This document shows, in pieces, positions 7,546-21,646 of a DNA stretch of 64,000 bases. The stretch covers positions 4,764,001 through 4,828,000 of the forward strand of contig NZ_LR134352.1 of NCBI RefSeq assembly GCF_900637185.1, given 5' to 3'. Each line of letters opens with the position of its first letter. Position 1 is the first letter of the stretch. The stretch comes from Nocardia asteroides. GTDB taxonomy: Bacteria; Actinomycetota; Actinomycetes; Mycobacteriales; Mycobacteriaceae. A program made the position numbers and the translations under genes. A model generated the notes under the pieces. That model worked only from the letters and a program-made list of their open reading frames with translations, was not told the origin of the DNA and made no database searches.

Positions 7546-7555
7546 CTCGACGACC

Positions 7556-7589
7556 GATCCCGGGACGCCCCCTACCTCGTCCCGGGATC
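7556..7589. terminator. Bidirectional hairpin terminator
   Basis: A perfect 12-bp stem, GATCCCGGGACG (7556-7567) with CGTCCCGGGATC (7578-7589), and a 10-base loop. It sits 10 bases after the micro-ORF stop and 7 bases beyond the stop of the minus-strand BVMO (7597), so it probably serves both. No clear U-tract. Confidence 0.8.
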
Positions 7590-7596
7590 AGTTGTG

Positions 7597-9093
7597 TCAG
7601 GAATTCGGCGCGACCGGATCCCCGAGCATCGTGGTGTCATAGGCCGCGACGTCGAAAGACCGCAGCATGCGATGGAACCGGAAACTGAAATCCGGCCAGA
7701 GCCGGGACTGATTTCCTTTTTCGTCGACGAACCAGCTGGTGCAGTCGCCGCCGTTCCAGACCGTGCCGGCGAATTTCGTCTGCAATTCCCGGTTGTAGTC
7801 ACGCTGAGCCTGTGCGCGCACTTCCACGGTCGCCAGTCCCCGTGCGTCCATCGTCTCGATCGCGGCGGCGATGTAGTTGATCTGCGATTCGATGGTGAAC
7901 ACCGCCGAGGTGTAGCTCAATGCCGCGTTGGGACCGATCATCAGGAACAGATTGGGAAAGTTCGCGATGGTCGTGCCCTTGTAGACGGCCAGGCCCTCGG
8001 CGTCGAACACCTCCGCCAGGGTGCGCCCGTCCCGGCCGCTGATCAGGTCGTAGGTCGGCGAGTCGGTGATCCGGAACCCGGTCGCGAAGACGATCGCGTC
8101 GACCTCGCGTTCGGTGCCGTCGGCCGCGACGATCGACTGTGCCGTGATCTCGGTGACCGCGTCGGTGACGACCTCGACATTGTCCCTGGCCAGGGCCGGG
8201 TAGTACTCGTTCGAGATCAGCATGCGCTTGCAGCCGAGCCGGTGGTCCGGGGTGACCTTGCGGCGCAGTACCGGATCCCGCAGCACCTGCCACATCTTCA
8301 GGCGGGCACCGGCCGAGAAGAAGTCGGCCAGCGGCGGGTACTTCGACTGCCACAGCACGAACGACTCGCGCACCCAGTACACCGCGGTGCGGGCCACCCG
8401 CTGCGCGCCCGGCACGTGCCGGTACCAGAGGCGTTCGGCCCGGGTGTACCGGTGGCCCAGGCGCGGCAGCACCCACGGCGCGCTGCGCTGATACAGCGAC
8501 AGCTGCCCGACCCGGTCCGCGATCGCGGGCACGATCTGGATGGCCGAGGCGCCGGTGCCGACCACCGCGACCCGCTTGCCGGTGAGGTCGGCCTCGTGAT
8601 CCCAGCGTGCCGAGTGGAACAGCGGGCCGCGAAACTCGCTGATGCCCTTGATGTCCGGCAGTTTGGGCGCGCTGAGCGGACCCGCGGCCGACACCGTGAT
8701 GTCGGCGGTGAACGCGCCCCGGGTGGTGTGGATGTCCCAGCGCGCGGTCTCGGCGTTCCAGCGCGCGCCGGTCACCTCGCAGTCGAGCAGGATCGACTCG
8801 CGGATCCCGTGCCGGTCCACCACGTCCTGCACGTACTGCTGGATCTCCGGCTGGGTCGAGAAGGAGTGCGTCCAGTTCGGATTCGGGGCGAACGAGTACG
8901 AGTACAGCTGCGACGGCACGTCGCAGCCGGCACCGGGGTAGGTGTTGTCGCGCCAGGTGCCGCCGACATCGCCTGCCCGTTCGAACACCACCATGTCGGT
9001 GATCCCGAGCCGGCGCAGCCGGATGGCCACGCCGAGCCCGGCGAATCCCGCGCCGATGATCGCCACCCGCACGTGGCGCGGCGAGTCGGTCAC
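7597..9093 (-). CDS. Baeyer-Villiger-type flavin monooxygenase (second copy)
   Basis: A 498-residue FAD/NADPH monooxygenase. The FAD Rossmann motif GAGFAGLG lies near residue 15, followed by GGTWRDNTYPGAGCDVPS. The BVMO fingerprint F-x-G-x3-H-x3-W appears as FRGPLFHSARW, and a second NADPH-type GTGASA motif follows. Start GTG 9093 is fixed by the GTGA overlap with the upstream copy; the longer open frame upstream is out-of-frame reading of that gene. It likely inserts oxygen next to a ketone or hydroxylates a product of the isoprenoid operon, of which it is the last gene. The substrate cannot be read from sequence. Confidence 0.9.
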   Translation of the reverse strand: MTDSPRHVRVAIIGAGFAGLGVAIRLRRLGITDMVVFERAGDVGGTWRDNTYPGAGCDVPSQLYSYSFAPNPNWTHSFSTQPEIQQYVQDVVDRHGIRESILLDCEVTGARWNAETARWDIHTTRGAFTADITVSAAGPLSAPKLPDIKGISEFRGPLFHSARWDHEADLTGKRVAVVGTGASAIQIVPAIADRVGQLSLYQRSAPWVLPRLGHRYTRAERLWYRHVPGAQRVARTAVYWVRESFVLWQSKYPPLADFFSAGARLKMWQVLRDPVLRRKVTPDHRLGCKRMLISNEYYPALARDNVEVVTDAVTEITAQSIVAADGTEREVDAIVFATGFRITDSPTYDLISGRDGRTLAEVFDAEGLAVYKGTTIANFPNLFLMIGPNAALSYTSAVFTIESQINYIAAAIETMDARGLATVEVRAQAQRDYNRELQTKFAGTVWNGGDCTSWFVDEKGNQSRLWPDFSFRFHRMLRSFDVAAYDTTMLGDPVAPNS

Positions 9094-10613
9094 CGGGCCC
9101 GCGCCGTGGTGTCGTAGGCCTCGATGTCGAACCGGCGGACCAGGCGCCGGTACTTGAAGCTGTAGTCGGGCCACAGCGCGGAGTTGTTGCCGTGCTTGTC
9201 CAGGAACCAGCTGGTGCAGCCGCCGGTGACCCACACGGTGCGGGCCATCTTCGGCTCCAGCGCGCGGTTGTAGGCGCGCTGCACGTCGACCTTCACCTCG
9301 AACGAGCGCAGGTTGCGCGCCTGCATGGTGGCGATGGCGTCGACCACGTAGTTGATCTGGGACTCGATGATGTAGATCAGCGAGGTGTAGTTCAGCCCGG
9401 AGTTGGCGCCCAGCATGAAGAACATGTTGGGGAAGTTGGCCACCGTGGTGCCCTTGTACATCTGGTAGCCCTCGGCGTCGGCCGCCTCCGAGACCGTGCG
9501 CCCGTCGCGTCCGGTGTAGAGGTTGAACGTCGGCGAATCGGCGACGTGGAAGCCGGTGGCCAGCACGATCGCGTCGACCTCGCGCTCGGTGCCGTCCTCG
9601 GTGACGATCGAGTTCGCCCGCACCTCGGCGATGCCGTCGGTCACCAGGTCGACGTTGTCGCGGTCCAGGGCGGGATAGAACTTGTTGGACACCAGCATCC
9701 GCTTGCAGCCGAGGCGGTGCTCGGGCAGCACCTTGCGCCGCAGCTGCGGGTCGCGGATCTCCCAGCGCATCTTCGCCCGGCCCACCGCTTCCAGCAGCAG
9801 ACCGGTGCGCGGGTACTTCACCTGGGTGATCACGAACAGTTCCCGGGCCAGGTAGATGAAGCCGCGGGCCAGCCGCTGCAAGCCGGGGATGTGACGGAAG
9901 GCGAAGCGTTCGGGCCACAGGTAGGGCCGGGCCAGCTGCGGCATCACCCAGGTGGCGGTGCGCTGGTACACGTCGAGGTGCTCGACCTCGGGCGCGATCG
10001 ACGGCACGATCTGCACCGCCGAGGAGCCGGTACCGATGACGGCGACCTTCTTGCCCGCCAGGCTCGCGTCGTGGTTCCACCGCGCGGAGTGGAAGATCTC
10101 GCCCTCGAAGCTCGAGATGCCTTTGATGTCGGGCAGATTCGGTTCGGCGAGCACGCCGGCCGCCGACACGACGAAGTCCGCGGTGTAGGCGGCCTTGGTG
10201 GTGTCGACCTCCCAGTGCCCGTCGGTGTCGTTCCACCGCGCCGCGGTCATCGCGCAGTCGAAGACGTGCTTGTCGCGCACGCCGTAGCGGTCGGCGACCT
10301 CGCGCAGGTACTGCTCGATCTCGGCCTGCGGGGAGAACGAGCGCGACCAGTTCGGGTTCAGCGCGAACGAGTACGAGTACAGCTGCGAGGGCACGTCGCA
10401 GCCCGCGCCCGGGTAGGTGTTGTCGCGCCAGGTGCCACCCACGTCGGCGCCGCGTTCGACGACGACGTAGTCGGTGACCCCGTGCTGGCTCAGCCGGATC
10501 GCGGTACCCAGCCCGGACAGGCCGCTGCCGATGATCAGGACCCGGACGTGGCTCCGGGGGGCGGTGTCACCGGGTAGCTCGCCGGTGACGGTGGTGGTGT
10601 CGTTACTGCTCAC
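9090..10613 (-). CDS. Baeyer-Villiger-type flavin monooxygenase (first copy)
   Basis: A 507-residue paralogue of the adjacent gene, alike along its whole length (same GGTWRDNTYPGAGCDVPSQLYSYS block). FAD motif GSGLSGLG, BVMO fingerprint FEGEIFHSARW, NADPH motif GTGSSA, and the late ATGF motif (LATGFHVADSP) are intact. ATG 10613 lies 9 bases after the mvaS stop, so it belongs to the mevalonate/isoprenoid operon. The pair looks like a tandem duplication that has diverged. Comparable enzymes in bacterial terpenoid pathways oxidise ketone intermediates; the substrate here is unknown. Confidence 0.9.
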   Translation of the reverse strand: MSSNDTTTVTGELPGDTAPRSHVRVLIIGSGLSGLGTAIRLSQHGVTDYVVVERGADVGGTWRDNTYPGAGCDVPSQLYSYSFALNPNWSRSFSPQAEIEQYLREVADRYGVRDKHVFDCAMTAARWNDTDGHWEVDTTKAAYTADFVVSAAGVLAEPNLPDIKGISSFEGEIFHSARWNHDASLAGKKVAVIGTGSSAVQIVPSIAPEVEHLDVYQRTATWVMPQLARPYLWPERFAFRHIPGLQRLARGFIYLARELFVITQVKYPRTGLLLEAVGRAKMRWEIRDPQLRRKVLPEHRLGCKRMLVSNKFYPALDRDNVDLVTDGIAEVRANSIVTEDGTEREVDAIVLATGFHVADSPTFNLYTGRDGRTVSEAADAEGYQMYKGTTVANFPNMFFMLGANSGLNYTSLIYIIESQINYVVDAIATMQARNLRSFEVKVDVQRAYNRALEPKMARTVWVTGGCTSWFLDKHGNNSALWPDYSFKYRRLVRRFDIEAYDTTARAR

Positions 10614-10622
10614 AGGGCCACC

Positions 10623-11798
10623 TCAGCGGGCTTCGTAGATGCGTTTGTGGCCGGATACGGCGGCGAGCCGGTACGGGCGCCGGGTCTCCTCCGCCATGGC
10701 GTGGTAGGCGCCGTCGCTGGGCGAACCGGCCTCGTGCAGCTGCCGGTAGTGCTCGTAGCCGATCAGTTCGCGCGAGTCGATGGCGGCCCGGTTGGCCGCG
10801 GTGCGCAGGTGCTCGCGGTAGCCGGGCTGCACGGTGCCGCTGAAGAATTCGGCGACGCTGCCGGAGCCGTAGCTGATCATCGCCAGTGCCCGGTCGGTGA
10901 GGTCGCCCGCGTGGTCGAGCAGCGCGGCCAGGCCCAGGTACAGCGACGCGGTGTAGCTGTTGCCGACCGTGCGGTTGTAGCGGGTGGTGTCGCCGATGGC
11001 GGCCTCGATCGCGGCGGCGTCGGCGGTGTGGCCCTGGCTCTCCAGCAGGTGGCGGTGCGCCTTGTAGGCCATCTTGGTGAAGGGCTGGTGGTAGCAGAAC
11101 GCGGCGAACTCGCCGAGGTCGCGCCCGCCCTGGCGGCGGTAGTCGGTCCAGGCCTCCTGGGCCGCCTTCTGGTAGGCGTTGACCGAGGTCTTGCCGTCGA
11201 CGATGGCGGCGCTACGGTAGTTGGGCCGCCAGAAGTCCATGATGTCGGCGCTGTAGAGCCCGGACTGCGGATCCAGTTGCAGGATGGCCGGATTCGCGGT
11301 GACCAGCATCGCGACGGCCGCGGCGCCCTGGGTGGGCTCACCCGGGGAGTCGAGGTCGTACTTGGCGATGTCGGCCGCGATCACCAGCACCCGCTGGGCG
11401 GGGTCACGGGCGATCAGGCCCGCCGCGAACTGCAGGCCCGCGGTACCGCCGTAGCAGGCCTGCTTGAGCTCGACCACCCGCGCGGCGTTGGGCAGCCCGA
11501 TCAGCGAATGCAGGTACAGCGCGGCGGCTTTGGACTGGTCCACACCGGTCTCGGTGGCCAGCAGCACGGTGCGGATGTTGTCGGTGCCGTGCCGCTCCAG
11601 GATGGGCGCCGCGGCCGCGGCGGCGATGGTGACGATGTCCTCGTCGGCCGCGGCGACGCTCATCTTCTCCTGGCCGATGCCCAGGTAGAACTTGTCGCGA
11701 TCCACGCCGAGGCGTTCGGCGAGGACGGCGTGGTCGAGGGCGTAGTGGGTGGTGGCGAACGAAAGGTCGTGGATACCGACCGGCAGTGTGTGCGTCAT
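10623..11798 (-). CDS. mvaS: Hydroxymethylglutaryl-CoA synthase
   Basis: A 391-residue HMG-CoA synthase that condenses acetyl-CoA with acetoacetyl-CoA. It starts MTHTLPVGIHDLSFAT. The catalytic cysteine lies in LKQACYGGTAGLQFA, the histidine in FCYHQPFTKMAYKAH, and the catalytic glutamate region in ATETGVDQSKA. Start ATG 11798 overlaps the mvaA stop (ATGA). It is the last of six mevalonate genes, in the same order as the known Streptomyces CL190 cluster. Confidence 0.96.
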   Translation of the reverse strand: MTHTLPVGIHDLSFATTHYALDHAVLAERLGVDRDKFYLGIGQEKMSVAAADEDIVTIAAAAAAPILERHGTDNIRTVLLATETGVDQSKAAALYLHSLIGLPNAARVVELKQACYGGTAGLQFAAGLIARDPAQRVLVIAADIAKYDLDSPGEPTQGAAAVAMLVTANPAILQLDPQSGLYSADIMDFWRPNYRSAAIVDGKTSVNAYQKAAQEAWTDYRRQGGRDLGEFAAFCYHQPFTKMAYKAHRHLLESQGHTADAAAIEAAIGDTTRYNRTVGNSYTASLYLGLAALLDHAGDLTDRALAMISYGSGSVAEFFSGTVQPGYREHLRTAANRAAIDSRELIGYEHYRQLHEAGSPSDGAYHAMAEETRRPYRLAAVSGHKRIYEAR

Positions 11799-12853
11799 CG
11801 TTGGGTTCCGTTGCTCGTGGTTGACCGCTCGAATTGGGTGTGGGCGCGCATCAGCTCGCCGCGATTGGTCTGTGCCGCCATCAGCGACAGTTCGCCGCAC
11901 AGGACCGAAGCCGCGCCGATGACGGCGAGGCGGCGGGCGTTCTCGCCCGGCTCGCGGTCGGCGCGGCAACCGAGGCGCTCGAGGTTCTCGTCGACGAAGC
12001 TGGCGTGCTTGCCGTTACCCACGGTGCCCACGATGAGGTTGGGCAGGGTGCACGAGAAGTACAGGTCGCCGTCGCGGTCCTCGGCGTGGGTGACGCCCTG
12101 GGAACCCTCGACGATGTTGGCCGCGTCCTGGCCGGTGGCCAGGTAGAACGCCAGCAGCATGTTGGCGTAATGCGCGTTGGCGGAACGGATTCCGCCCGCG
12201 AGCAGGGTGCCGATCAGGTTCTTGCGGATGTTCAGCTCCACCACCTGGCGGGCGGTGGTGTGCAGCCGCGCTTCGACCACCGCGCGCGGGATCAGCAGCT
12301 CGGTGACGACGTTCTTGCCGCGCCCGAGGATGCCGTTGACCGCGGTGGCCTTCTTGTCGGTACAGAAGTTGCCCGAGATGGAGCCGTATCGCACGCCCGG
12401 CAGGGTCGCCAGGATGTGGTCCATCAGGTGATCGCTGGCCAGGGTGGCCATGTTGTGGCCCGAGGCGTCGCCGGTGCTGAACTCGAACCGCAGGAACAGC
12501 AGGTTGCCGTTGATCTGGTGGTGCAGATCGATCAGCCGGGCGAAGCGGCTGGTGCCGGCGACCACGTCCTGCAGTTCGGCGAAACGGTCCTTCAGCGTGT
12601 TCACGGTGGTGAGCGCGGTGTAGGCGTCGTCGGCCTCGAGCAGGATCGAACGGGTCATCCGCTCGTCGATCAGGGTCGCGACGATCCCCTTCTCGGTGAG
12701 CGTGGAGATGCGGGCGCCGCGACCGACCGAGGGCCACAGCGGGGTCTCGTAGGTGGCCAGGGGAATGTCGACGGCGTCGTCGACGACGTTCCCCGTGATG
12801 CGCACCGGCCCCACCCACTGCAGCGGGACCGCTGCGTACGACATGTCATTCAC
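11795..12853 (-). CDS. mvaA: Hydroxymethylglutaryl-CoA reductase
   Basis: A 352-residue HMG-CoA reductase making mevalonate. Recognisable are the substrate region PLATYETPLWPSVGRGA and the cofactor motif TGDASGHNMATLASDH, in the form seen in actinobacterial enzymes. The late stretch EGSQGVTHAEDRDGD precedes a C-terminal GNGKHASF histidine. GTG 12853 is chosen because GAGGAGGAG lies just upstream; ATG 12844 is possible. The start overlaps the end of fni. Confidence 0.94.
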   Translation of the reverse strand: MNDMSYAAVPLQWVGPVRITGNVVDDAVDIPLATYETPLWPSVGRGARISTLTEKGIVATLIDERMTRSILLEADDAYTALTTVNTLKDRFAELQDVVAGTSRFARLIDLHHQINGNLLFLRFEFSTGDASGHNMATLASDHLMDHILATLPGVRYGSISGNFCTDKKATAVNGILGRGKNVVTELLIPRAVVEARLHTTARQVVELNIRKNLIGTLLAGGIRSANAHYANMLLAFYLATGQDAANIVEGSQGVTHAEDRDGDLYFSCTLPNLIVGTVGNGKHASFVDENLERLGCRADREPGENARRLAVIGAASVLCGELSLMAAQTNRGELMRAHTQFERSTTSNGTQR

Positions 12854-13943
12854 CGATGACTCCTCCTCGGTCTTTCGATTCGCGCCACCAGGGACTCCGG
12901 TGGGCAAGGGACGCCGCGTCGATGCCGCGCAGTGCGCAGAAGGTCGCCACGTCCCCGGTGATCAGCAGGTCGCAGCCGGCCAGGTCGGCCGGGGTGCGGG
13001 CGCCGAGCACGGTCAGGATCTGGCGCAGCTGGTCGAGCCAGGTGCGGATCTGGGCGATCAGCGTGTCGGTGTCGGCGCGCACGACGGTGTCGAGGAACGC
13101 GCCGGCCACGCCGGTCGCGGTCGCGCCCAGGGCCAGCGCCCTGGCGATGTCGAGCGGCGAGCGGATGCCGCCGGAGGCCGCGATGTCGATCCCGTCGATG
13201 CCCGCGCAGTCGAGCAGGCAGTTCGGGGTGGACTGGCCCCAGCTCTCGATGAAGGCGAAGTCGGCGGCCGGGCGCCGCTCGTTCTCGATGCGCGCGAAGT
13301 TGGTGCCGCCGCGTCCGCCGACATCGGCGACCGCGACCCCGGCGTCGCGCAGCCAGGTGACGGTCTGCCTGCTCAGCCCGAAGCCGACTTCCTTCACGAC
13401 CACCGGCACCGGCACGTGGGCGGTGAGGTGCTCGATCTGGCGCGGCCACGAGGCGAAGGACCGGTCGCCCTCGGGCATCACGGCTTCCTGCACCGCGTTG
13501 AGGTGGATCTGCAGCGCGTCGGCCTCGAGCAGGTCGATCGCGCGGCGCGCCTGGTCCAGCGTGGCGGTGGCGTTGACGTTGGCCATCACGAAACCGTGCG
13601 GATTCTCCTCGCGCAGCACCCGATAGGTGCCGGCCACCGCGGGATCGCGGAAGTAGGCGCTCATCGAGCCGGTGGCGATGGGGATGCCGGTCTCGCGGGC
13701 CGCGACAGCCAGCTTGCGGTTGATCTCGCCGGTGGCGGCGCTGCCGCCGGTCATGGCGTTGACGTAGAGCGGTGTGTCCCAGGGCTTTCCGGCGAATTCG
13801 GTGGTCAGCGCGACATCGGCGCTGTCGATACCGGCCAGGGCGTGATGGACGAAGGTGACCGCGTCGAAGTCGTTGCCGCCGGAGTCGGCGCGACGCTGGT
13901 TCACCGCGTGCCGGACGTGGTCGTCCTTGCGATCGGCGATCAT
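12846..13943 (-). CDS. fni: Type 2 isopentenyl-diphosphate isomerase (FMN)
   Basis: A 365-residue FMN enzyme interconverting IPP and DMAPP. Features: N-terminal RKDDHVRHA, the MTGGS motif (YVNAMTGGSAATGEIN), the central QIHLNAVQEAVMPEGDR active-site loop, GGRGGTNF, and AASGGIRSPLDIA for flavin phosphate binding. ATG 13943 overlaps the mvaK2 stop by ATGA. It supplies DMAPP for the prenyl synthase in the same operon. Confidence 0.95.
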   Translation of the reverse strand: MIADRKDDHVRHAVNQRRADSGGNDFDAVTFVHHALAGIDSADVALTTEFAGKPWDTPLYVNAMTGGSAATGEINRKLAVAARETGIPIATGSMSAYFRDPAVAGTYRVLREENPHGFVMANVNATATLDQARRAIDLLEADALQIHLNAVQEAVMPEGDRSFASWPRQIEHLTAHVPVPVVVKEVGFGLSRQTVTWLRDAGVAVADVGGRGGTNFARIENERRPAADFAFIESWGQSTPNCLLDCAGIDGIDIAASGGIRSPLDIARALALGATATGVAGAFLDTVVRADTDTLIAQIRTWLDQLRQILTVLGARTPADLAGCDLLITGDVATFCALRGIDAASLAHRSPWWRESKDRGGVIGE

Positions 13944-15097
13944 GCGATCTCCCCTTCGGTCGGGTGGATACGGAGCGGCAGCGGCCGGATACCCGCGGCG
14001 ACCCAGCGGCCGGTGAGTTCGGCGATCGCGGCCGGGCGGTCCCGCTCGATCAGGGCGATCCCGCAGTCGCCGCCGCCCGCGCCCGAGGGTTTGGTGGCCG
14101 CGCCGACGGCGGCGCCCGCCGCGCACAGTTCCCGCAGCCGCGGTGTCATGATGCCGAGGCCGGTGCTGTCGTCGAGGTCGACCAGAAGGTCACGGGCGCG
14201 GTCGATCTCGGCGCGGACCGCGACGGGATCGTCGGCATCGAGCGCGAGCAGCAGGCGGCCGACACAGTCGTTGCTGCGGGCATTGAACGCCGCGCGGCGA
14301 TCGCGGGCCGTGCCGGCGGCAGGGACGGCCTCGGCGACCGCTACTCGGCGAGTAGGGACGGCGGCAGGGTCGGCCGTGGCAGCGGCGACCAGATCCGGGG
14401 TGGACGCGGGGTTTCCGGTCCAGCCGATATGCAGGGCGAGCCGGGTCGGGGTTCGGAGTGGGCGCACCGAGAGGCCGGGCCAAGGGGCGTGCAGTGCGGC
14501 GTCGATGCCGTCGTTCGCGGCGAGGGCGGCGGCGAACGTGCGGTCCGGGGACGTGTAGGCCAGCCACCCGCCCCAGGTGGCCGCCGCCACGTCGCCCCCG
14601 GAGGCGCGCGGATTCACCGCGATCGTGGCGAGCATGGCCAGCCGGTACCGGTCCATCGGGGAAAGATCGAGGTCGTGGAACCGGCCGAGCGCGGCGACGG
14701 CCGCGACGGTGACGGCCGCGCTGGAACCGAGACCGTACTTGCGGCCGTCGGGGTCGCCGAGGTCGGTGGAGACCGCGAGATCATAAGGGCGGGAGACGAT
14801 CCCGCGCTCGGCACGCAGCCGGTCCAGCGTCGACGCGGCGGCGAAGACGTAGGCGAACGCGGCCGGGACGGCGGCATCGGGGGTGGCCGGGACCAGCCGG
14901 TCACCGTCACGGTGACAGGTCAGCGAGGTCCCGCCGTCCAGATCCGACCGCAGGGTCGTGGCCGCGTCGGCGGGCACCTCGGTGATCGTCGCGGTCGCGT
15001 AGCGGTCCACCGCGGTGAGCACCGCACGATGGCCCGGCTCGACGACGGCGTACTCCCCCGCGATGAACAGCTTTCCCGGTGCGCGACAACTGATCAC
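13940..15097 (-). CDS. mvaK2: Phosphomevalonate kinase
   Basis: A 385-residue GHMP kinase that phosphorylates 5-phosphomevalonate. N-terminal APGKLFIAGEYAVV, the ATP loop DPDGRKYGLGSSAAVTVA, and C-terminal ATKPSGAGGGDCGIAL are the three GHMP motifs in the PMK pattern. GTG 15097 is used, overlapping the mvaD stop as GTGA. The gene continues the strictly coupled mvaK1-D-K2 series. Confidence 0.94.
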   Translation of the reverse strand: MISCRAPGKLFIAGEYAVVEPGHRAVLTAVDRYATATITEVPADAATTLRSDLDGGTSLTCHRDGDRLVPATPDAAVPAAFAYVFAAASTLDRLRAERGIVSRPYDLAVSTDLGDPDGRKYGLGSSAAVTVAAVAALGRFHDLDLSPMDRYRLAMLATIAVNPRASGGDVAAATWGGWLAYTSPDRTFAAALAANDGIDAALHAPWPGLSVRPLRTPTRLALHIGWTGNPASTPDLVAAATADPAAVPTRRVAVAEAVPAAGTARDRRAAFNARSNDCVGRLLLALDADDPVAVRAEIDRARDLLVDLDDSTGLGIMTPRLRELCAAGAAVGAATKPSGAGGGDCGIALIERDRPAAIAELTGRWVAAGIRPLPLRIHPTEGEIA

Positions 15098-16134
15098 GGG
15101 TGTTCGCCCCCGATCAGCCGCGCGCCGGGACCGATGTGCGCGGTGGTGGTGGCGACGAAGCCACCGAGCGCCTCGATGGTGGCGGCGACGGTGGGCGCGT
15201 CGGCCCGCGCGCACAACACCTTCACATTGGGGCCCGCGTCGATGGTGGCGTAGGCGACGATGCCGTCGGCGCGCAGCGCCTGCACCGCGTCCAGCACCGC
15301 GAGCGAGTGCGGGGACAGATAGCGGATGCCGGGCCGCGCGGTGAGCATGGTGGCATGCATTCCGAGCGCGTTGCGTTCGGCGATCTCGCCGATGGCGGCC
15401 AGATCCCCGTTCGCGACGGCGGTCCGCATCTCGGCCAGATCGAGCACCGAGGACTCGGCCCACGGCCGGTAGAACGGGGAGGTCTCGGTGGTCCGGCGCA
15501 TGGCGACCCGGCTCGACACCGACTTGGCGCCCGCCGCGACGACCGCGACGACCAGGGCCGGATCCAGCTCGTCCCCACCGATCGGCTCGGCGTAGGAGCT
15601 CAGGTCGCCGGCTTCGCCGTCGCCCTCGCCCGCGTGCCAGACGGCGAACCCGCCGAAGATCGAGCGCGAGGCCGAGCCGGAGCCCCGCCGGGCCAGCCGC
15701 GAGAGGGCGCGCCCGTCCAGGTCGAGCCCGTAGGCGGCGGCGGCCGCGGTGGCGAGGGCGGCGAATCCACTGGCCGAGGAGGCCAGACCGGCCCCGGTCG
15801 GGCCCGCGTTGCGGGTGACGACGGCGGCGCGCTCGGATCGGCCCGCCAGCGCGCGGACCAGGTCGAGGAAGTTCTCGACCCGGCTCAGCGCAGTACCGGT
15901 CGCGGCGGTGTCGTTGAGTTCGACGGTGTCGGCGGGACCGTCGACGAGCCGCACGGCGGTGGTCGTCGGGAAGATGTCCAGCGTCATCGACAGGCTGCCC
16001 GTGACGGGCAGGAACAGGGTCTCATCGCGCTTGCCCCAGTACTTGACCAGGGCGATGTTCGGGTAGGCGACGGCCACGGCCGTGCCGTCGGACTGCGGCG
16101 CGGCCGCCACGGGTGCTGCGGAAGGGGAAGTCAT
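15094..16134 (-). CDS. mvaD: Diphosphomevalonate decarboxylase
   Basis: A 346-residue GHMP-fold decarboxylase making IPP. Signature stretches are AYPNIALVKYWGKRDETLFLP, the phosphate loop GPTGAGLASSASGFAALA, and RGSGSASRSIFGGFAVW. YATIDAGPNVKVL marks the C-terminal domain. ATG 16134 overlaps the mvaK1 stop by ATGA. Confidence 0.96.
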   Translation of the reverse strand: MTSPSAAPVAAAPQSDGTAVAVAYPNIALVKYWGKRDETLFLPVTGSLSMTLDIFPTTTAVRLVDGPADTVELNDTAATGTALSRVENFLDLVRALAGRSERAAVVTRNAGPTGAGLASSASGFAALATAAAAAYGLDLDGRALSRLARRGSGSASRSIFGGFAVWHAGEGDGEAGDLSSYAEPIGGDELDPALVVAVVAAGAKSVSSRVAMRRTTETSPFYRPWAESSVLDLAEMRTAVANGDLAAIGEIAERNALGMHATMLTARPGIRYLSPHSLAVLDAVQALRADGIVAYATIDAGPNVKVLCARADAPTVAATIEALGGFVATTTAHIGPGARLIGGEHP

Positions 16135-17180
16135 CGGCTGGTTTCGCGTTCCGGTCTCGAGGCGGAGGGGGACAGAGGGCCGGGGCGCAGGCTCGCGGTG
16201 GTGACCGTCCAGGTCTGCGCGGCGCCGGCCCGGCGCAGGGCGGCGCTCACCGCGGCCACCGATCCGGTGGGCGTGAGGGCGAGCACGCAGCCACCGAGGC
16301 CGGCCCCGGTGAGCTTGGCGCCGAACGCGCCCGCGGCGCAGGCGGCCTCGACCAGGGCATCGATCTGCGGGGTGCTGACCCCGAGGTCGGCGAGCAGGCG
16401 CTGGAACGACAGCATCGCATCGCCCAGGGCCGCCGCATGTCCGGCGGTGAGATCGGCGGCGGCGGCCTCGATCAGCCCGGCGGCCGTGGCCAGCTGCGCC
16501 CGCGCGGCGGCCGGGTCGCGCTCCAAGGTGCGGCGGACGCCCGCCACCGCGTGCTGGGTGGAACCGGGAACGCCGGTGTCGGCGATCACCAGCGCGGCGT
16601 CCACGCCGACGGACAAGGGCCGGGCCGCGCCCTGATGGAACCAGATCGGCCCGCTCGCCAGCACGGCGCTGGCGTCGATGCCGCTGGCCCGGCCGTGCGC
16701 GACCTGTTCGCCGCACTGCACCAGCTCGTAGAGCGTGGCCGGGTCGACGGCGCGGCCGTACAGGTCGGCGACCGCGCGGACCGCCGCGCCCGCGCACGCG
16801 GCGCTGGAGCCCAGGCCACGCGCCAGCGGGATGTCGCATTCGACGAGGACGTCGACGAGATCGCCGGCACATCCCCAGCGCCGCAACGCTTCCTCGACCG
16901 CGACCCGCGGCCCCGAGGCGGTGCTCGCGGTGTGCGGATCACCGGCGAGGAACCGGAAGTGTCCCGCGGCCAGGACGGAGGATTCGGTGTCGGGGGCGCC
17001 GCGCCGGGCAATGGCGCGCACCGGCAACGCGGGCAGGGGAAACGCGATCGCGGGGGTGCCGTGGACGACGGTGTGCTCACCGAGCAGGATCGCCTTGGCG
17101 TACGAGCGGCCGATGCCGGCCGCCGGGCCCGGGTCTGTGGAGTTGTGTCTGATGCGCTCTCGAACAGGATGCGCGTTCAC
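16131..17180 (-). CDS. mvaK1: Mevalonate kinase
   Basis: A 349-residue GHMP kinase phosphorylating mevalonate. Motifs: YAKAILLGEHTVVHGTPAIA, PLARGLGSSAACAGAAV, HGRASGIDASAV (with the catalytic Asp), and KLTGAGLGGCVLAL. GTG 17180 follows a GGGAGAGG ribosome site; an ATG overlapping it is closed at once by TGA. It is the first mevalonate gene, separated from the preceding gene by a strong hairpin. Confidence 0.95.
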   Translation of the reverse strand: MNAHPVRERIRHNSTDPGPAAGIGRSYAKAILLGEHTVVHGTPAIAFPLPALPVRAIARRGAPDTESSVLAAGHFRFLAGDPHTASTASGPRVAVEEALRRWGCAGDLVDVLVECDIPLARGLGSSAACAGAAVRAVADLYGRAVDPATLYELVQCGEQVAHGRASGIDASAVLASGPIWFHQGAARPLSVGVDAALVIADTGVPGSTQHAVAGVRRTLERDPAAARAQLATAAGLIEAAAADLTAGHAAALGDAMLSFQRLLADLGVSTPQIDALVEAACAAGAFGAKLTGAGLGGCVLALTPTGSVAAVSAALRRAGAAQTWTVTTASLRPGPLSPSASRPERETSR

Positions 17181-17209
17181 ATCGATTCCTCTCCCGCACT
17201 CGGGCGGTG

Positions 17210-17251
17210 CCCGCCCCGCGTGTCACCCGAAGGGGAAACACGCGGGGCGGG
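17210..17251 (-). terminator. Intra-operon hairpin (terminator or attenuator)
   Basis: A perfect 14-bp stem, CCCGCCCCGCGTGT (17210-17223) with ACACGCGGGGCGGG (17238-17251), 14-base loop. It begins 7 bases after the stop of the NnrU-like gene and ends 30 bases before mvaK1. No promoter fits in the remaining gap, so read-through or attenuation is more likely than a full stop. Confidence 0.7.
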
Positions 17252-17257
17252 AACGCT

Positions 17258-18067
17258 TCACGGCTGTCGGGTCGATCGGCCGAAGATGCGGAGCACGGAC
17301 GGGAAGAAGGCGGGAACCTGAGCCGCGTAGGCGCGGTAGGACGCACCGAAGCGCGCGATCAGGTCCCGTTCCTCCAGGTAGGTGCCCAGCAGGATGTAGC
17401 CGGTCAGCCCCAGTGCCCACACCAGATGCCCGACGGTGAACGTGCTGGCGAACCAGAACGAAACCAGCAGGCCGGTCATCAGCGGATGCCGGACCAGTCG
17501 GTACACCCCGTTCACCTGCAACCGGTCCACCGTCGCGTCGGGTACCTGGATGACGTACTCGCGGTAGGCCTGGCTGATGCCGAGCAGGTGGAAGTGGTTC
17601 AGCAGCAACGTCGCCGCGTAGACCAGCACGAAACCGAGCCAGAACCCGGCGTCGAGCACCAGTCCCACGGTGCCCTCGGCCGACCACAGCTGCGCCGGAA
17701 TCGGCTGCCACGCCAGCATGATCACCCACATCACCAGGCACACGGCCACGATGTAGACGGTCCGCTCCAGCGCCTCCGGCACCCAGCGGGTGACGAAGGC
17801 CTTGAACGCGGGCCGGGCCATGCCCGAGTGCTGCAGGCCGAACAGGCCCAGCAGCAGCACGTCGATGATCAGTGCCGGGACGGTCGACAGGTGCGGGCCC
17901 TTGTCGATCGTCTTCGGCAGGAACCAGCCGCCGGCGAACAGCAGCATCAGCGGCACGGTGATGCCGGCGACGCCGTAGACGGCGAAGGCGAACAGGAACG
18001 GCACGAGGCGCGAGCGGCTCGTCAGGACGTCCCTGGCCTGCGACGACGTGGGGGTGATCAGATCCAT
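17258..18067 (-). CDS. NnrU/MddA-like membrane methyltransferase
   Basis: A 269-residue membrane protein with about six hydrophobic segments (starting near residues 20, 55, 95, 125, 150 and 200). The C-terminal part VNGVYRLVRHPLMTGLL followed by YLEERDLIARFGASYRAYAAQVP is the SAM-binding pattern shared by NnrU, MddA and isoprenylcysteine carboxyl methyltransferases. ATG 18067 overlaps the desaturase stop by about 10 bases; a longer open frame upstream is desaturase shadow. In this operon a prenyl-linked O- or S-methylation is an attractive role, but MddA-like thiol methylation is an equal possibility. Confidence 0.75.
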   Translation of the reverse strand: MDLITPTSSQARDVLTSRSRLVPFLFAFAVYGVAGITVPLMLLFAGGWFLPKTIDKGPHLSTVPALIIDVLLLGLFGLQHSGMARPAFKAFVTRWVPEALERTVYIVAVCLVMWVIMLAWQPIPAQLWSAEGTVGLVLDAGFWLGFVLVYAATLLLNHFHLLGISQAYREYVIQVPDATVDRLQVNGVYRLVRHPLMTGLLVSFWFASTFTVGHLVWALGLTGYILLGTYLEERDLIARFGASYRAYAAQVPAFFPSVLRIFGRSTRQP

Positions 18068-19050
18068 GCGAACCACGGCAGGTACCGGTTGCGCACGGTC
18101 CCCTCTTCGATGCGCTTCTCCAGCTTGGCCTTCCACTTGTTGCCGTAGCCCTCGTTGAGGAAGCCGCCGGGCCAGAACAGGCGCCAGCCCGACTGCGCGA
18201 CCATCCAGTAGGGGACGATGACGCCGGGGTTCACGTCACGCATGTAGTCGAGCTTGTCCGGGATCTGGCTCCAGTGGATACCCGGGTAGCGGTGGTGCAC
18301 GCTGTGGTAGCCCTGGTTGAAGATCAGGAAGTTGAGGATGTTGCCCGCGTTGTTCAGCGAGGTGCTCGGCTCGTCGTCGAAGCCGCGGGCCGGCGCGTGG
18401 CTCAGCCAGGCGAAGTAGCCCGCGTTGACCTGCGTGATGAGGAACGGCACCCAGTAGAACAGGACGAACTTCTCCATGCCTGCGGCGTACCAGACACCGC
18501 CGATCACGACCGCGTACACCGCCAGGTCGAACAGGAACTGGTGGCGGGTGCGCAGGCGCCGCGGCGCCGGGTTCGCGGCGAAGACCATCCGCATGGTGTG
18601 GACCTTGACGATCACGCCGTAGCGGACCCAGTACCAGATGGCGCCGAGGCCCTTCTCCATACCGGTGGTCGCGGTGACGTCGCCGGGCCCGTCGTTGAAC
18701 CGGTGATGGTTGAGGACGTGCACCTCACGCATCTCGGCGGCGGTCAGGTTGCCCGGCAGACAGCACAGGATGTCGACGACCCGGTTCGGGAACTTCGACA
18801 CGAACAGCGGCCGGTGGGTGTGCATGTGCATGACGCCGATGGTCAGCGACAGGTTCAGCAGCGACAGCACGATGATCAGCGGCACCGCCACGTACCAGTT
18901 CGAGGCGAACGGCACGAACAGCCCGAAGGCCGTCATGCCCATCCACAGCGCGATGTGCACGAGCGGGCCGACATTGGAGGCGTGCTCGAGCTTGAGCACG
19001 CGTTTGCTGAACGGCGTCTGTTCGGGGGCGACGGGCGTTGGGGTGCTCAT
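18058..19050 (-). CDS. Membrane fatty-acid-desaturase-like di-iron enzyme
   Basis: A 330-residue integral membrane protein with the three histidine clusters of the desaturase/hydroxylase superfamily: HMHTH near residue 74, HVLNHHRF (HxxxHH) near 111, and NQGYHSVHHRYPG (HxxHH) near 248. Hydrophobic segments flank them. ATG 19050 has GAAGGAG upstream and overlaps the stop of the 21-codon ORF. It lies between the chain-joining enzyme and the methyltransferase, so it may desaturate or hydroxylate the prenyl product; a fatty-acid substrate is also possible. Confidence 0.85.
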   Translation of the reverse strand: MSTPTPVAPEQTPFSKRVLKLEHASNVGPLVHIALWMGMTAFGLFVPFASNWYVAVPLIIVLSLLNLSLTIGVMHMHTHRPLFVSKFPNRVVDILCCLPGNLTAAEMREVHVLNHHRFNDGPGDVTATTGMEKGLGAIWYWVRYGVIVKVHTMRMVFAANPAPRRLRTRHQFLFDLAVYAVVIGGVWYAAGMEKFVLFYWVPFLITQVNAGYFAWLSHAPARGFDDEPSTSLNNAGNILNFLIFNQGYHSVHHRYPGIHWSQIPDKLDYMRDVNPGVIVPYWMVAQSGWRLFWPGGFLNEGYGNKWKAKLEKRIEEGTVRNRYLPWFAWI

Positions 19051-19112
19051 AGTCGAGCTCCTTCGCTAGTGATGTCCAGGACGGTGAGCGCGGGTCGGAT
19101 CAGGTTGCTCAT
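19047..19112 (-). CDS. 21-codon ORF coupled on both sides by ATGA
   Basis: Starts MSNLIRPALT and ends SEGARL (21 residues, near neutral). Its ATG at 19112 overlaps the stop of the squalene/phytoene-synthase-like gene, and its stop overlaps the desaturase start. An AGGGAGCC ribosome site precedes it. It fits the coupling style of the whole operon, so it may be translated simply to carry ribosomes to the desaturase, or it may be a real small protein. No family is recognised. Confidence 0.45.
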   Translation of the reverse strand: MSNLIRPALTVLDITSEGARL

Positions 19113-20380
19113 GGGCGGCTCCCTTGGGTGCTGGTGTCGAGGGCAGCGAGTTGGAGTCTCGTGGCGAGGGCCTGCAGCGCTTCGGGTTCGTGCGGTGCCA
19201 CCCGTTCCATCGCGCCGAAGGCGAGGTGGTCGGCGATCATCATGGTGCGGATCTCGGCGTCGGGGAGTTCGCCGGTGAGCGGCTCCTCGGGCAGCGTCTC
19301 CACGAGCGCGAAGGTGGTGTCGACGATCAGCGGGACCAGCGAGGTCGGCATCGACAGCGGGTCGCCCGCGCCGAGGACCCGCGTGGCTCCGCTCGCGCCG
19401 TCGGCGAAATCCGGTGAGGCGTCGAGCATCCGGTGGATCGCCAGGTCGGCGGTACCGCGCACGCGCTCCAGCATCCGGTTCCAGTAGCGGTTCGAGGACG
19501 CCGCCAGCAGCGCGGCGCCGACCTTGCGCCGGTAGGGCGCGGGCGTGTCGACCACCGAGCACAGGAACGCGGAGGTGGTGATGGTCATGTACGCCATCGC
19601 CGCGCGCGCACCCCGGCTCGGGGTGCCGGGGCCCAGCCGGGCCAGCAGGGCGAACCCGCCGAGCGCGGGGGCGAGCAACTGCAGCATGACGATCCGCTTC
19701 AGTTCCTCGCGGTCGGCGACGCCGTAGATCTCGAACTCGTTGTCGCGCAGGTCGTTCGCCGACTGGGCGATGACCGCGACACAGCCGGTGAGCTCACGCA
19801 GGTCGGCTTCGGAGAGCACATTGTCGGCGACCAGGGCGCACGCGTAGTGGGTGACCCGGCCGAGCACGCCCTCGCTGTAGGCGACCCGCGACAGCGGGGT
19901 GTCGATGTTGCGGGCCATCACGCCGGCCACGTCGGTGACGACCTCGCCGACCCGCTTGCGCCCGTCCGCCGACAGCACCGAGACCAGTGCCCTGATGTCG
20001 GTGATGCGGTCGGCGAGCAGCCGGTCGACGGCCTCGCTGTCGCGGGCCGCCACGGCGACCGCGGGCAGCGCGGGCGGCGGGGTGTCGGTGGCGCCGGTGA
20101 GGTAGTCCGCCGCCGCGAGCACGGCGCCGCTCGCGATCGCGCGCTCGCTCAGGTCCTCGAAGGCGTCGAGGACCCGGCAGGCCAGCAGGGCCGCGGTGGC
20201 CTCGTCGCGCAGGTGCGCGGGCAGGAAGCTCACCGAGATGCCGAGGTTGCGGCCCGCCGGGATCAGGGCCAGCGCGGCCAGCTCGGCGGGGGTCGTCGCG
20301 GCGCGCAGCGCGGCCAGGTCGGGCGCGCGCCGCAGGTGGCGCAGCCCGTAGGCGAGCGAGCCGATCCGGGTCTTTCTCAT
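19109..20380 (-). CDS. Squalene/phytoene-synthase-superfamily protein
   Basis: A 423-residue all-helical prenyl-joining enzyme candidate. SFLPAHLRDEATAALLACRVLDAFED matches the family's N-terminal signature; its first Asp-rich motif DxxED is DAFED (72-76). The second, expected as D-x-G-E-D after QLTNILR, reads AQSANDLRDNEFE (about 206-217), so one acidic position is shifted or replaced. The protein is about 120 residues longer than phytoene synthases, with an unassigned C-terminal helical extension. ATG 20380 overlaps the prenyl synthase stop. It probably uses two prenyl diphosphates from the upstream enzyme; chain length and product are unknown. Confidence 0.72.
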   Translation of the reverse strand: MRKTRIGSLAYGLRHLRRAPDLAALRAATTPAELAALALIPAGRNLGISVSFLPAHLRDEATAALLACRVLDAFEDLSERAIASGAVLAAADYLTGATDTPPPALPAVAVAARDSEAVDRLLADRITDIRALVSVLSADGRKRVGEVVTDVAGVMARNIDTPLSRVAYSEGVLGRVTHYACALVADNVLSEADLRELTGCVAVIAQSANDLRDNEFEIYGVADREELKRIVMLQLLAPALGGFALLARLGPGTPSRGARAAMAYMTITTSAFLCSVVDTPAPYRRKVGAALLAASSNRYWNRMLERVRGTADLAIHRMLDASPDFADGASGATRVLGAGDPLSMPTSLVPLIVDTTFALVETLPEEPLTGELPDAEIRTMMIADHLAFGAMERVAPHEPEALQALATRLQLAALDTSTQGSRP

Positions 20381-21459
20381 CGGTTGATCACCTGCTGCAG
20401 GAGTTCGCGGAGATCGTCGCGGGCCGGCGACGGCGGGAAGATGTCGAGCGCGGCGCTCGCGGTCTCGGTGGCGCGCACCGCGACCACCCGGGCGGCCTTG
20501 GTCGCGCCGCTGTCGACGAGGTCGGCCTGCAGGACCGCGCTGGAGGTGGTCTCGTCCAGCCACATCTCGCGGGCGCCGGGGCGCAGGGCCAGCCATTCGA
20601 TGACCGGCCAGGTCGGCACCCGCCGGTCCAGGTCGCCGCAGGCGTCCTTGCCCAGTTCGGGTCCGCCCTCGATGTCGCGGACGTCGTCCATGATCTGGAA
20701 GGCGAGCGCGAGCTGGTCGGCGTACTCCATCAGCGCCTGCAGCCGGTCGTTGTCGGCGCCGCCCGCGGTGCCGCCGTAGGAACACGAGAGCCGGAACAGC
20801 GTGCCCGTCTTGGCGCCCGCCACCAGCTCGTAGTGGCGGCGCAGCGCGGTGGCGTCGACGGCGGGCGGCAGGGTTTCGATGAGCTGGCCGAACGACAGGT
20901 CCGACAGCCGGTCGGCGTAGGTCACGCCGGGGGCGTCGCCGATGCCGGCGAACACCCCGGCGTTGTCGGCCAGCACCTGGGCGACGACCTGCATGGCGGT
21001 GCCGGCCAGGTGGAATCCGGCCCTGGCCGCGATGCGCACGCCGAAGGCGGCGGGGACCGACGGCGCGCCGCGGCGCAACAGGGAACCGTCACAGATGTCG
21101 TCGTGCAGCAGCGAGGATTCGTGCAGCATCTCCATCGCGCAGGCCAGATCGATGGCGGCGTGACGCGGTGCCGCCTCCACGTCGGGGAGCAGACCCGCGC
21201 ACGCGAGCACGAGGCGGGCCCGGACCCGTTTCCCGGGAGCGGCCAGGACGTGCCGGTAGATGTCGTCGAATTCACCACCGGTGCCGAGGATTTCATGCAA
21301 TCGCTCGGTGACCAGCGGGAGCAGCTCGACCGGGCCGACAGCCGCGTCGCCGACGCCGGACGGTCGCGACAGGACCGCCACCTGGTCACCCGAGTGCTCC
21401 GGGTGCACGGCCGGGTGCCCATCCTGACGGGGTGCTGAGGGTAGCGCGGGATTGTCCAT
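20377..21459 (-). CDS. Polyprenyl (probably geranylgeranyl or longer) diphosphate synthase
   Basis: A 360-residue trans-prenyltransferase. The first Asp-rich motif is DDICD (120-124) in LLHDDICDGSLLRRG; the second is DDVRD in FQIMDDVRDIEG, followed by GKDACGDLDRRVPTWPV. GKRVRARLVL binds IPP. Small residues (Ser115, Ser116) stand four and five positions before the first motif, which by the known rule favours C20 or longer products. ATG 21459 has AAAGGAG upstream; the open frame further upstream crosses the promoter and is ignored. It is the first gene of the isoprenoid operon. An N-terminal stretch of about 45 residues is low in structure. Confidence 0.9.
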   Translation of the reverse strand: MDNPALPSAPRQDGHPAVHPEHSGDQVAVLSRPSGVGDAAVGPVELLPLVTERLHEILGTGGEFDDIYRHVLAAPGKRVRARLVLACAGLLPDVEAAPRHAAIDLACAMEMLHESSLLHDDICDGSLLRRGAPSVPAAFGVRIAARAGFHLAGTAMQVVAQVLADNAGVFAGIGDAPGVTYADRLSDLSFGQLIETLPPAVDATALRRHYELVAGAKTGTLFRLSCSYGGTAGGADNDRLQALMEYADQLALAFQIMDDVRDIEGGPELGKDACGDLDRRVPTWPVIEWLALRPGAREMWLDETTSSAVLQADLVDSGATKAARVVAVRATETASAALDIFPPSPARDDLRELLQQVINR

Positions 21460-21604: not shown

Positions 21605-21646
21605 CTACCGACGGGTAGTTTTGTAGAACGTTCCCCGACTTGTCAA
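21605..21646 (-). promoter_or_regulatory. Promoter and TetR-type operator of the isoprenoid operon
   Basis: On the minus strand a consensus -35 TTGACA (21646-21641) is followed by an A/T-rich -10 region around 21628-21617 (TACAAA/AAAACT). The inverted repeat CTACC-GACG-GGTAG (21605-21618) abuts the -10 and has the form of TetR-family operators. The leader to the ATG is about 150 bases. No TetR gene is adjacent; the nearest in the window are mftR and the one at 57962. Confidence 0.55.

Follow-up and report, generated by a model that had tools for sequence, protein, structure and literature searches.

A 12-gene run on the minus strand of a 64,000-nucleotide stretch of the Nocardia asteroides genome (contig NZ_LR134352.1, positions 4,764,001 to 4,828,000; hereafter the window) appears to contain a portable prenyl-lipid cassette. 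We put at roughly 0.6 the probability that this locus makes a joined, oxidised and methylated isoprenoid by means of a squalene-synthase-like prenyl-joining enzyme, here called SPSl. Pfam and NCBIfam calls place the genes from position 21459 down to 7597 in the order polyprenyl synthase, SPSl, PF00487 enzyme and methyltransferase (the four-gene core), followed by mevalonate kinase (MVK), diphosphomevalonate decarboxylase (MDD), phosphomevalonate kinase (PMK), type 2 isopentenyl diphosphate (IPP) isomerase (IDI2), HMG-CoA reductase (HMGR), HMG-CoA synthase (HMGS) and two Baeyer-Villiger monooxygenase (BVMO)-like genes. What is established is which genes are present, their order and distribution, and the match in fold; the reactions and the product are what we infer. 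An earlier sequence-only reading had described a thirteen-gene isoprenoid operon on one strand, in which prenyl joining is followed by tailoring, with no cyclase and no CrtI. The single strand held and the number of genes did not; neither a cyclase nor CrtI was detected among the operon genes by Pfam and NCBIfam. The genes for probable prenyl joining (squalene-synthase fold), oxidation and methylation are in place, and the linear, oxidised, methylated product remains a prediction.

Recurrence of the core in other genomes

A genome scan with two exact peptide patterns identified 38 SPSl loci, and divergent members were missed because of the exact patterns. Twenty-four loci were from Nocardia and 14 from Mycobacterium, Mycolicibacter/Mycolicibacterium, Rhodococcus, actinobacterial metagenome-assembled genomes (MAGs) and one gammaproteobacterial MAG. 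In all 38 loci SPSl was adjoined by the polyprenyl synthase gene; the di-iron (PF00487) gene came next in 34 and an MddA-like methyltransferase gene in 32. The sequence-only reading had proposed a search for the same gene order in other actinomycetes, and the core with all six mevalonate genes was indeed present in 21 of the 24 Nocardia loci; contig ends cut another two. This recurrence is far beyond chance. Pairwise divergences of eight operon genes correlated at 0.73−0.94 across 37 loci, uncorrected for species relatedness. N. salmonicida has a second copy, L037 (10001−18886), in which polyprenyl synthase and SPSl stand as a pair and the di-iron, methyltransferase and mevalonate genes are all missing.

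Mevalonate genes followed the core in none of the 14 non-Nocardia loci, and HMGR was absent from all 12 non-Nocardia genomes searched, which included three MAGs (the search left out L071, the gammaproteobacterial MAG, and L063, which belongs to the same MAG as L061). The mevalonate feed, proposed earlier as a defining feature, is not supported as one, given that Mycobacterium, Rhodococcus and several MAGs have the core but not these genes; the BVMOs vary too. Because the same core occurs without mevalonate genes in related bacteria, the real unit looks like a compact portable cassette, wider than the operon. A remote form of this cassette, in L071 (8880−13219), has genes for polyprenyl synthase, SPSl (32%) and the di-iron enzyme (41%), with a soluble class I methyltransferase in place of the MddA-like one; the gene ends touch or overlap. 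A search with this gammaproteobacterial SPSl returned six proteins, itself and five of actinobacterial type. SPSl had a match in 30 of 150 Nocardia genomes, 29 of them strong (G083 and a second match in G107, with E near 1e-3, were not counted as positive). A draw of 401 genomes from the family contained SPSl in 13 genomes from 3 of 31 genera, and the distribution is therefore patchy.

SPSl and the proposed pathway

The first gene (20377..21459, minus strand) encodes an idsB-like polyprenyl diphosphate synthase (PF00348, 156.8 bits) with DDxxD motifs in HESSLLHDDICD and MDDVRD, all of whose scores against NCBIfam equivalogs lay below cut-off. Small residues precede its first DDxxD, an arrangement that goes with products of C20 or longer, which suggests such a product for this enzyme. 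SPSl itself (19109..20380, minus strand, 423 aa) has the all-helical isoprenoid synthase fold of the squalene synthase type and is structurally closer to squalene synthase than to CrtM; on the strength of this fold, SPSl probably joins prenyl chains. It shares with the squalene/phytoene synthase superfamily the fold, the first aspartate motif D-x-x-x-D (DAFED/DAYED, with E75 and D76 invariant and D72 nearly so), a QxxNx[LIV]RD segment and similar motif spacing. Unlike that superfamily, SPSl scored below the Pfam cut-off (SQS_PSY PF00494, 14 bits against 26), received no NCBIfam name and lacked the second aspartate motif R-D-x-x-[ED]-D, which was found in 0/32 SPSl sequences against 25/26 phytoene synthases (PSY; the PSY motif was counted in 26/26 comparison sequences). 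PF00494 gave some match in 17 of the 32 relatives (best E 0.0012), profile comparison with the 26 PSY stretches showed weak similarity, and a PDB sequence search with the SPSl profile returned nothing relevant. A protein search with a 14-sequence SPSl alignment produced 225 matches, the best 120 of which were listed. An unlikely yet credible alternative is that SPSl acts as a prenyltransferase or in a terpene-synthase-like manner on one prenyl diphosphate and another acceptor, giving a meroterpenoid or an unusual terpene.

The third core gene (18058..19050, minus strand) encodes a membrane di-iron oxygenase/desaturase (PF00487, 121.5 bits, cut-off 29.7) with the three histidine boxes typical of such enzymes (HMHTH, HVLNHH and HSVHH). 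The earlier annotation as a desaturase is just one possible reading of a PF00487 enzyme. The protein is weakly CrtR/CrtW-like, its NCBIfam CrtR score (34.8 bits) being far under the cut-off of 475. The fourth gene (17258..18067, minus strand) encodes an MddA/ICMT-type membrane methyltransferase scoring 221 bits against the MddA model NF045656. It shares the membrane methyltransferase superfamily with ICMT and the methanethiol S-methyltransferase MddA but differs from MddA in scoring below the equivalog cut-off of 270, as did all three members tested (214−229 bits); the match to an ICMT structure had an E value of only 0.13. Beyond the mevalonate genes, BVMO1 (9090..10613, minus strand; best PDB match cyclohexanone monooxygenase, E 2e-67) and BVMO2 (7597..9093, minus strand; best PDB match steroid monooxygenase, E 3e-75) both carry FxGxxxHxxxW between two GxGxx[GA] motifs, the fingerprint of type I Baeyer-Villiger monooxygenases.

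Taken in sequence, these enzymes would form the following pathway. Judging from its domain and motifs, the polyprenyl synthase would make a prenyl diphosphate of about C20 or longer, two of which SPSl, with its altered second aspartate motif, would join head to head, as its fold and motifs imply. The product would be a linear C30−C40 hydrocarbon or its cyclopropyl diphosphate intermediate, which the membrane di-iron enzyme may then oxidise or desaturate. Coupling of these two steps is suggested by the predicted protein P0125, in which SPSl is fused to the di-iron enzyme. The ICMT/MddA-type methyltransferase would methylate the oxidised product, and in Nocardia and Rhodococcus the BVMOs are predicted to insert oxygen next to a ketone, although the order of oxidation, methylation and BVMO reaction is a guess. 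An MmpL exporter, added in some mycobacteria and Nocardia, would export the product.

Because crtE-crtI-crtB and dxr lie elsewhere in the window genome, CrtI and the marker of the methylerythritol phosphate (MEP) pathway are not missing from the cell, and the separate crt locus means that carotenoids have their own genes. Inside the operon there is no CrtI-type desaturase with CrtB of the kind that marks a crt cluster. A second carotenoid-type pathway, in which SPSl makes phytoene or a relative, and CrtI supplied from elsewhere and a di-iron ketolase/hydroxylase lead to an oxidised carotenoid, overlaps with our joining step and seems rather unlikely. It draws on the crt locus elsewhere in the genome, the weak CrtR/CrtW resemblance of the di-iron enzyme, an RPE65-family (carotenoid-cleavage-type) dioxygenase gene directly after the di-iron gene in L061, and crtI (49%) and crtB (52%) relatives about 5 kb beyond SPSl in L037. 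However, in tblastn searches with own-genome queries (E 1e-5), L037 was the only one of the 38 loci with CrtI and CrtB relatives nearby; the structure of SPSl is closer to squalene synthase than to CrtM, and the host already has a canonical CrtB. In L056, a mycobacterial MAG, an RPE65-family dioxygenase also occurs in three pieces on the opposite strand (18906−20191), as a broken gene or an assembly error.

The M. kansasii carotenoid locus crtEIBYcYd-mmpL1-crtR with fni, as described in the available part of PMC9861118, likewise brings together a prenyl synthase, a joining enzyme, tailoring genes, MmpL and an IPP isomerase, and its mmpL lends the carotenoid account a further point. It differs in its canonical CrtB and CrtI and its lycopene cyclases, and that part of the paper mentions neither a methyltransferase nor a BVMO. 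Two surveys of Nocardia clusters name, in the text available, the crt family and hopanoids (PMC7413640) and brasilicardin (PMC12153302), and not the gene set of the operon. No characterised cluster with this set was found in the accessible text of the open-access literature, with subscription papers outside the scope, in keeping with the earlier claim that the combination matches no known terpenoid pathway.

Isoprene supply and exchangeable parts

The six mevalonate genes, all on the minus strand, encode MVK (16131..17180; GHMP kinase domains and operon position), MDD (15094..16134; PF22700, 188 bits, and PF18376), PMK (13940..15097; GHMP kinase domains and position), type 2 IPP isomerase (12846..13943; TIGR02151, 380 bits, cut-off 281), HMGR (11795..12844; PF00368, 272 bits; TIGR00533, 290 bits, below the cut-off of 442) and HMGS (10623..11798; TIGR01835, 504 bits, cut-off 360). 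Six genes on one strand run in what we take to be the order of the Streptomyces sp. CL190 mevalonate operon, MVK-MDD-PMK-IDI2-HMGR-HMGS, as the sequence-only reading had stated. Unlike those of CL190, the Nocardia genes stand behind the four-gene core and are followed by two BVMOs. Since the genome also has dxr, the mevalonate genes seem to provide another isoprene route beside MEP, and they would serve as a Nocardia-specific IPP supplement.

The CL190 operon paper is cited in PMC13001223. In M. marinum, according to the available part of PMC12632256, a mevalonate operon (MMAR_3218-3212, in the order idi-erg12-mvd-pmvk-hmgR-pksG-idsB2) similarly combines mevalonate genes and a polyprenyl synthase alongside the MEP pathway, and is dispensable in culture and tied to stress. 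Its gene order differs, and that part mentions no SPSl, di-iron enzyme, methyltransferase or BVMO; nor are the Nocardia tailoring genes mentioned in the available accounts of this operon in PMC12632256 and PMC13001223. The M. marinum case and the hairpin between core and mevalonate genes (see below) would both suit the idea that the Nocardia operon is a chance or supply fusion, with mevalonate genes for general stress supply of isoprenoids, as proposed for M. marinum, and unrelated flanking genes. We consider this quite improbable, because HMGR was present in 29/29 Nocardia genomes with strong SPSl (and in 38 further genomes without it), the joint order was kept in 21 of the 24 Nocardia loci, and in four of six SPSl-negative, HMGR-positive Nocardia regions inspected the mevalonate genes lay near other prenyl synthase genes. 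The other two regions, L121 and L124, showed no such mevalonate operon beside HMGR. In the Nocardia region L125, a polyprenyl synthase gene and the gene for an SrpI-like type 2A encapsulin shell lie beside the mevalonate operon.

Around the core, the remaining parts vary. Of the 24 Nocardia loci, 18 had a BVMO1 relative 3′ of HMGS (for L051, L054 and L055 its absence is valid just for the ≤1.4 kb remaining past HMGS), and in three Rhodococcus loci a BVMO (56% identical) followed the methyltransferase. An MmpL gene stood directly after the methyltransferase in four Mycobacterium loci (simulans, szulgai, gastri and angelicum), and an MmpL relative was divergently upstream in four Nocardia loci. 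All six close MmpL orthologues in the 150 Nocardia genomes (67−100% identity, including the query's own genome) were beside SPSl; the window genome contained none at this threshold. L056 carries a BVMO, DXS and another MMPL gene in a row, and DXS is convergent with SPSl in L057 and L070; DXS beside the core may fill the supply part in some mycobacterial relatives. In three loci of Mycobacterium/Mycolicibacter (L057, L064 and L070), polyprenyl synthase and SPSl adjoin an AfsA-like protein, an ICMT-like methyltransferase (40 bits, below cut-off) and a PEP-synthase-like protein, with a P450, a second polyprenyl synthase and an MMPL gene also nearby (domains were read in L057; L064 and L070 were assigned by clustering). 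This set is possibly a second pathway that uses SPSl.

A bolder proposal, to which we give somewhat less than even odds, is that SPSl founds an unrecognised squalene-synthase-like branch without the second aspartate motif, making a prenyl-prenyl skeleton that is neither squalene nor phytoene. The cassette, shared by Nocardia, slow-growing mycobacteria, rhodococci and, remotely, a gammaproteobacterial MAG, would then carry a swappable supply (mevalonate or DXS), methyltransferase class and oxygenase (BVMO, P450 or carotenoid-cleavage type) and yield a methylated, oxidised isoprenoid lipid, MmpL-exported in some hosts. The results point to an unnamed prenyl-joining enzyme family common to Nocardia and slow-growing mycobacteria, and perhaps to a lipid class absent from the literature searched. 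They also amount to a natural experiment on the reason why both isoprenoid pathways persist in some actinobacteria, since one genus has a mevalonate operon behind the same core and some others have DXS near it.

Junctions, RNA elements and neighbouring genes

Seven of the 11 gene junctions are overlaps of 4−10 nt, and the other four are gaps of 1, 9, 58 and 77 nt, the first of which becomes an 8-nt overlap if HMGR starts at an upstream GTG. The earlier description of overlaps or gaps under 40 bases fits all but the two longest gaps. A 21-codon micro-ORF, also described earlier, is present (19049..19111, minus strand), and its final codons run into the ribosome-binding site of the gene that follows. 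An ORF of 11−21 codons occurs at this position in 13 of 21 Nocardia loci and was not found in 8; a conserved peptide was rejected on this count, and the element is probably a translational coupling/ribosome-binding region.

At the junction of methyltransferase and MVK (17181..17257, minus strand) lies a strong RNA hairpin (−48.1 kcal/mol, z −5.3), with a stem of 17251−17237 paired to 17224−17210. Across the window and four close relatives, two base pairs had changes in both partners; this count used 5 of 11 junction sequences, chosen for like register, with a window-derived structure that favours the hairpin. This number of pairs was reached by 194 of 500 shuffles and the further pair types by 251, against 2 of 500 for the cells with both-side changes and the covariation score. 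RNAalifold found no shared long stem in the 11 sequences. A fold of z −3.0 or lower (mononucleotide shuffles, first 130 nt) was obtained in 9 of 22 relatives and not in 13, so the hairpin is not universal. Since it lacks a U-tract, it may be a processing site, an attenuator or a weak terminator. It lies at the seam of core and supply genes, which may be transcribed together or apart.

As a candidate repressor operator, the window has a perfect palindrome, CTACC-CGTC-GGTAG (21605..21618), at a distance of 146 nt upstream of the first gene; of 20 Nocardia loci examined, 11 have it too. The pattern CTACCNGTCGGTAG has one match in the window, against 0.01 expected, and two copies in the genome, the second of which is next to a lipase-like gene. 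No regulator was recognised. A match to the pattern of a SigF-type promoter as in M. marinum (GTTC-N16-GGTAGG) is also present upstream of the operon; such a promoter is not claimed, because the pattern matched in only 1 of 20 relatives (L037). Upstream of the operon, and not counted as part of it, are a GntR/UTRA regulator and urocanase (histidine use genes; 23630−26224).

Just past the BVMO2 stop is a terminator-like 15-bp hairpin (7553..7592, minus strand; −32.5 kcal/mol, z −4.8). On the plus strand, convergent with the operon end, an ORF of 21 codons (7480−7545) has a good ribosome-binding site and would encode a hydrophobic peptide; it matched only its own genome among 148 searched. A stress phosphatase gene of the PAS-RsbU-SpoIIE-ATPase type (4903−7245, plus strand) adjoins the operon end.
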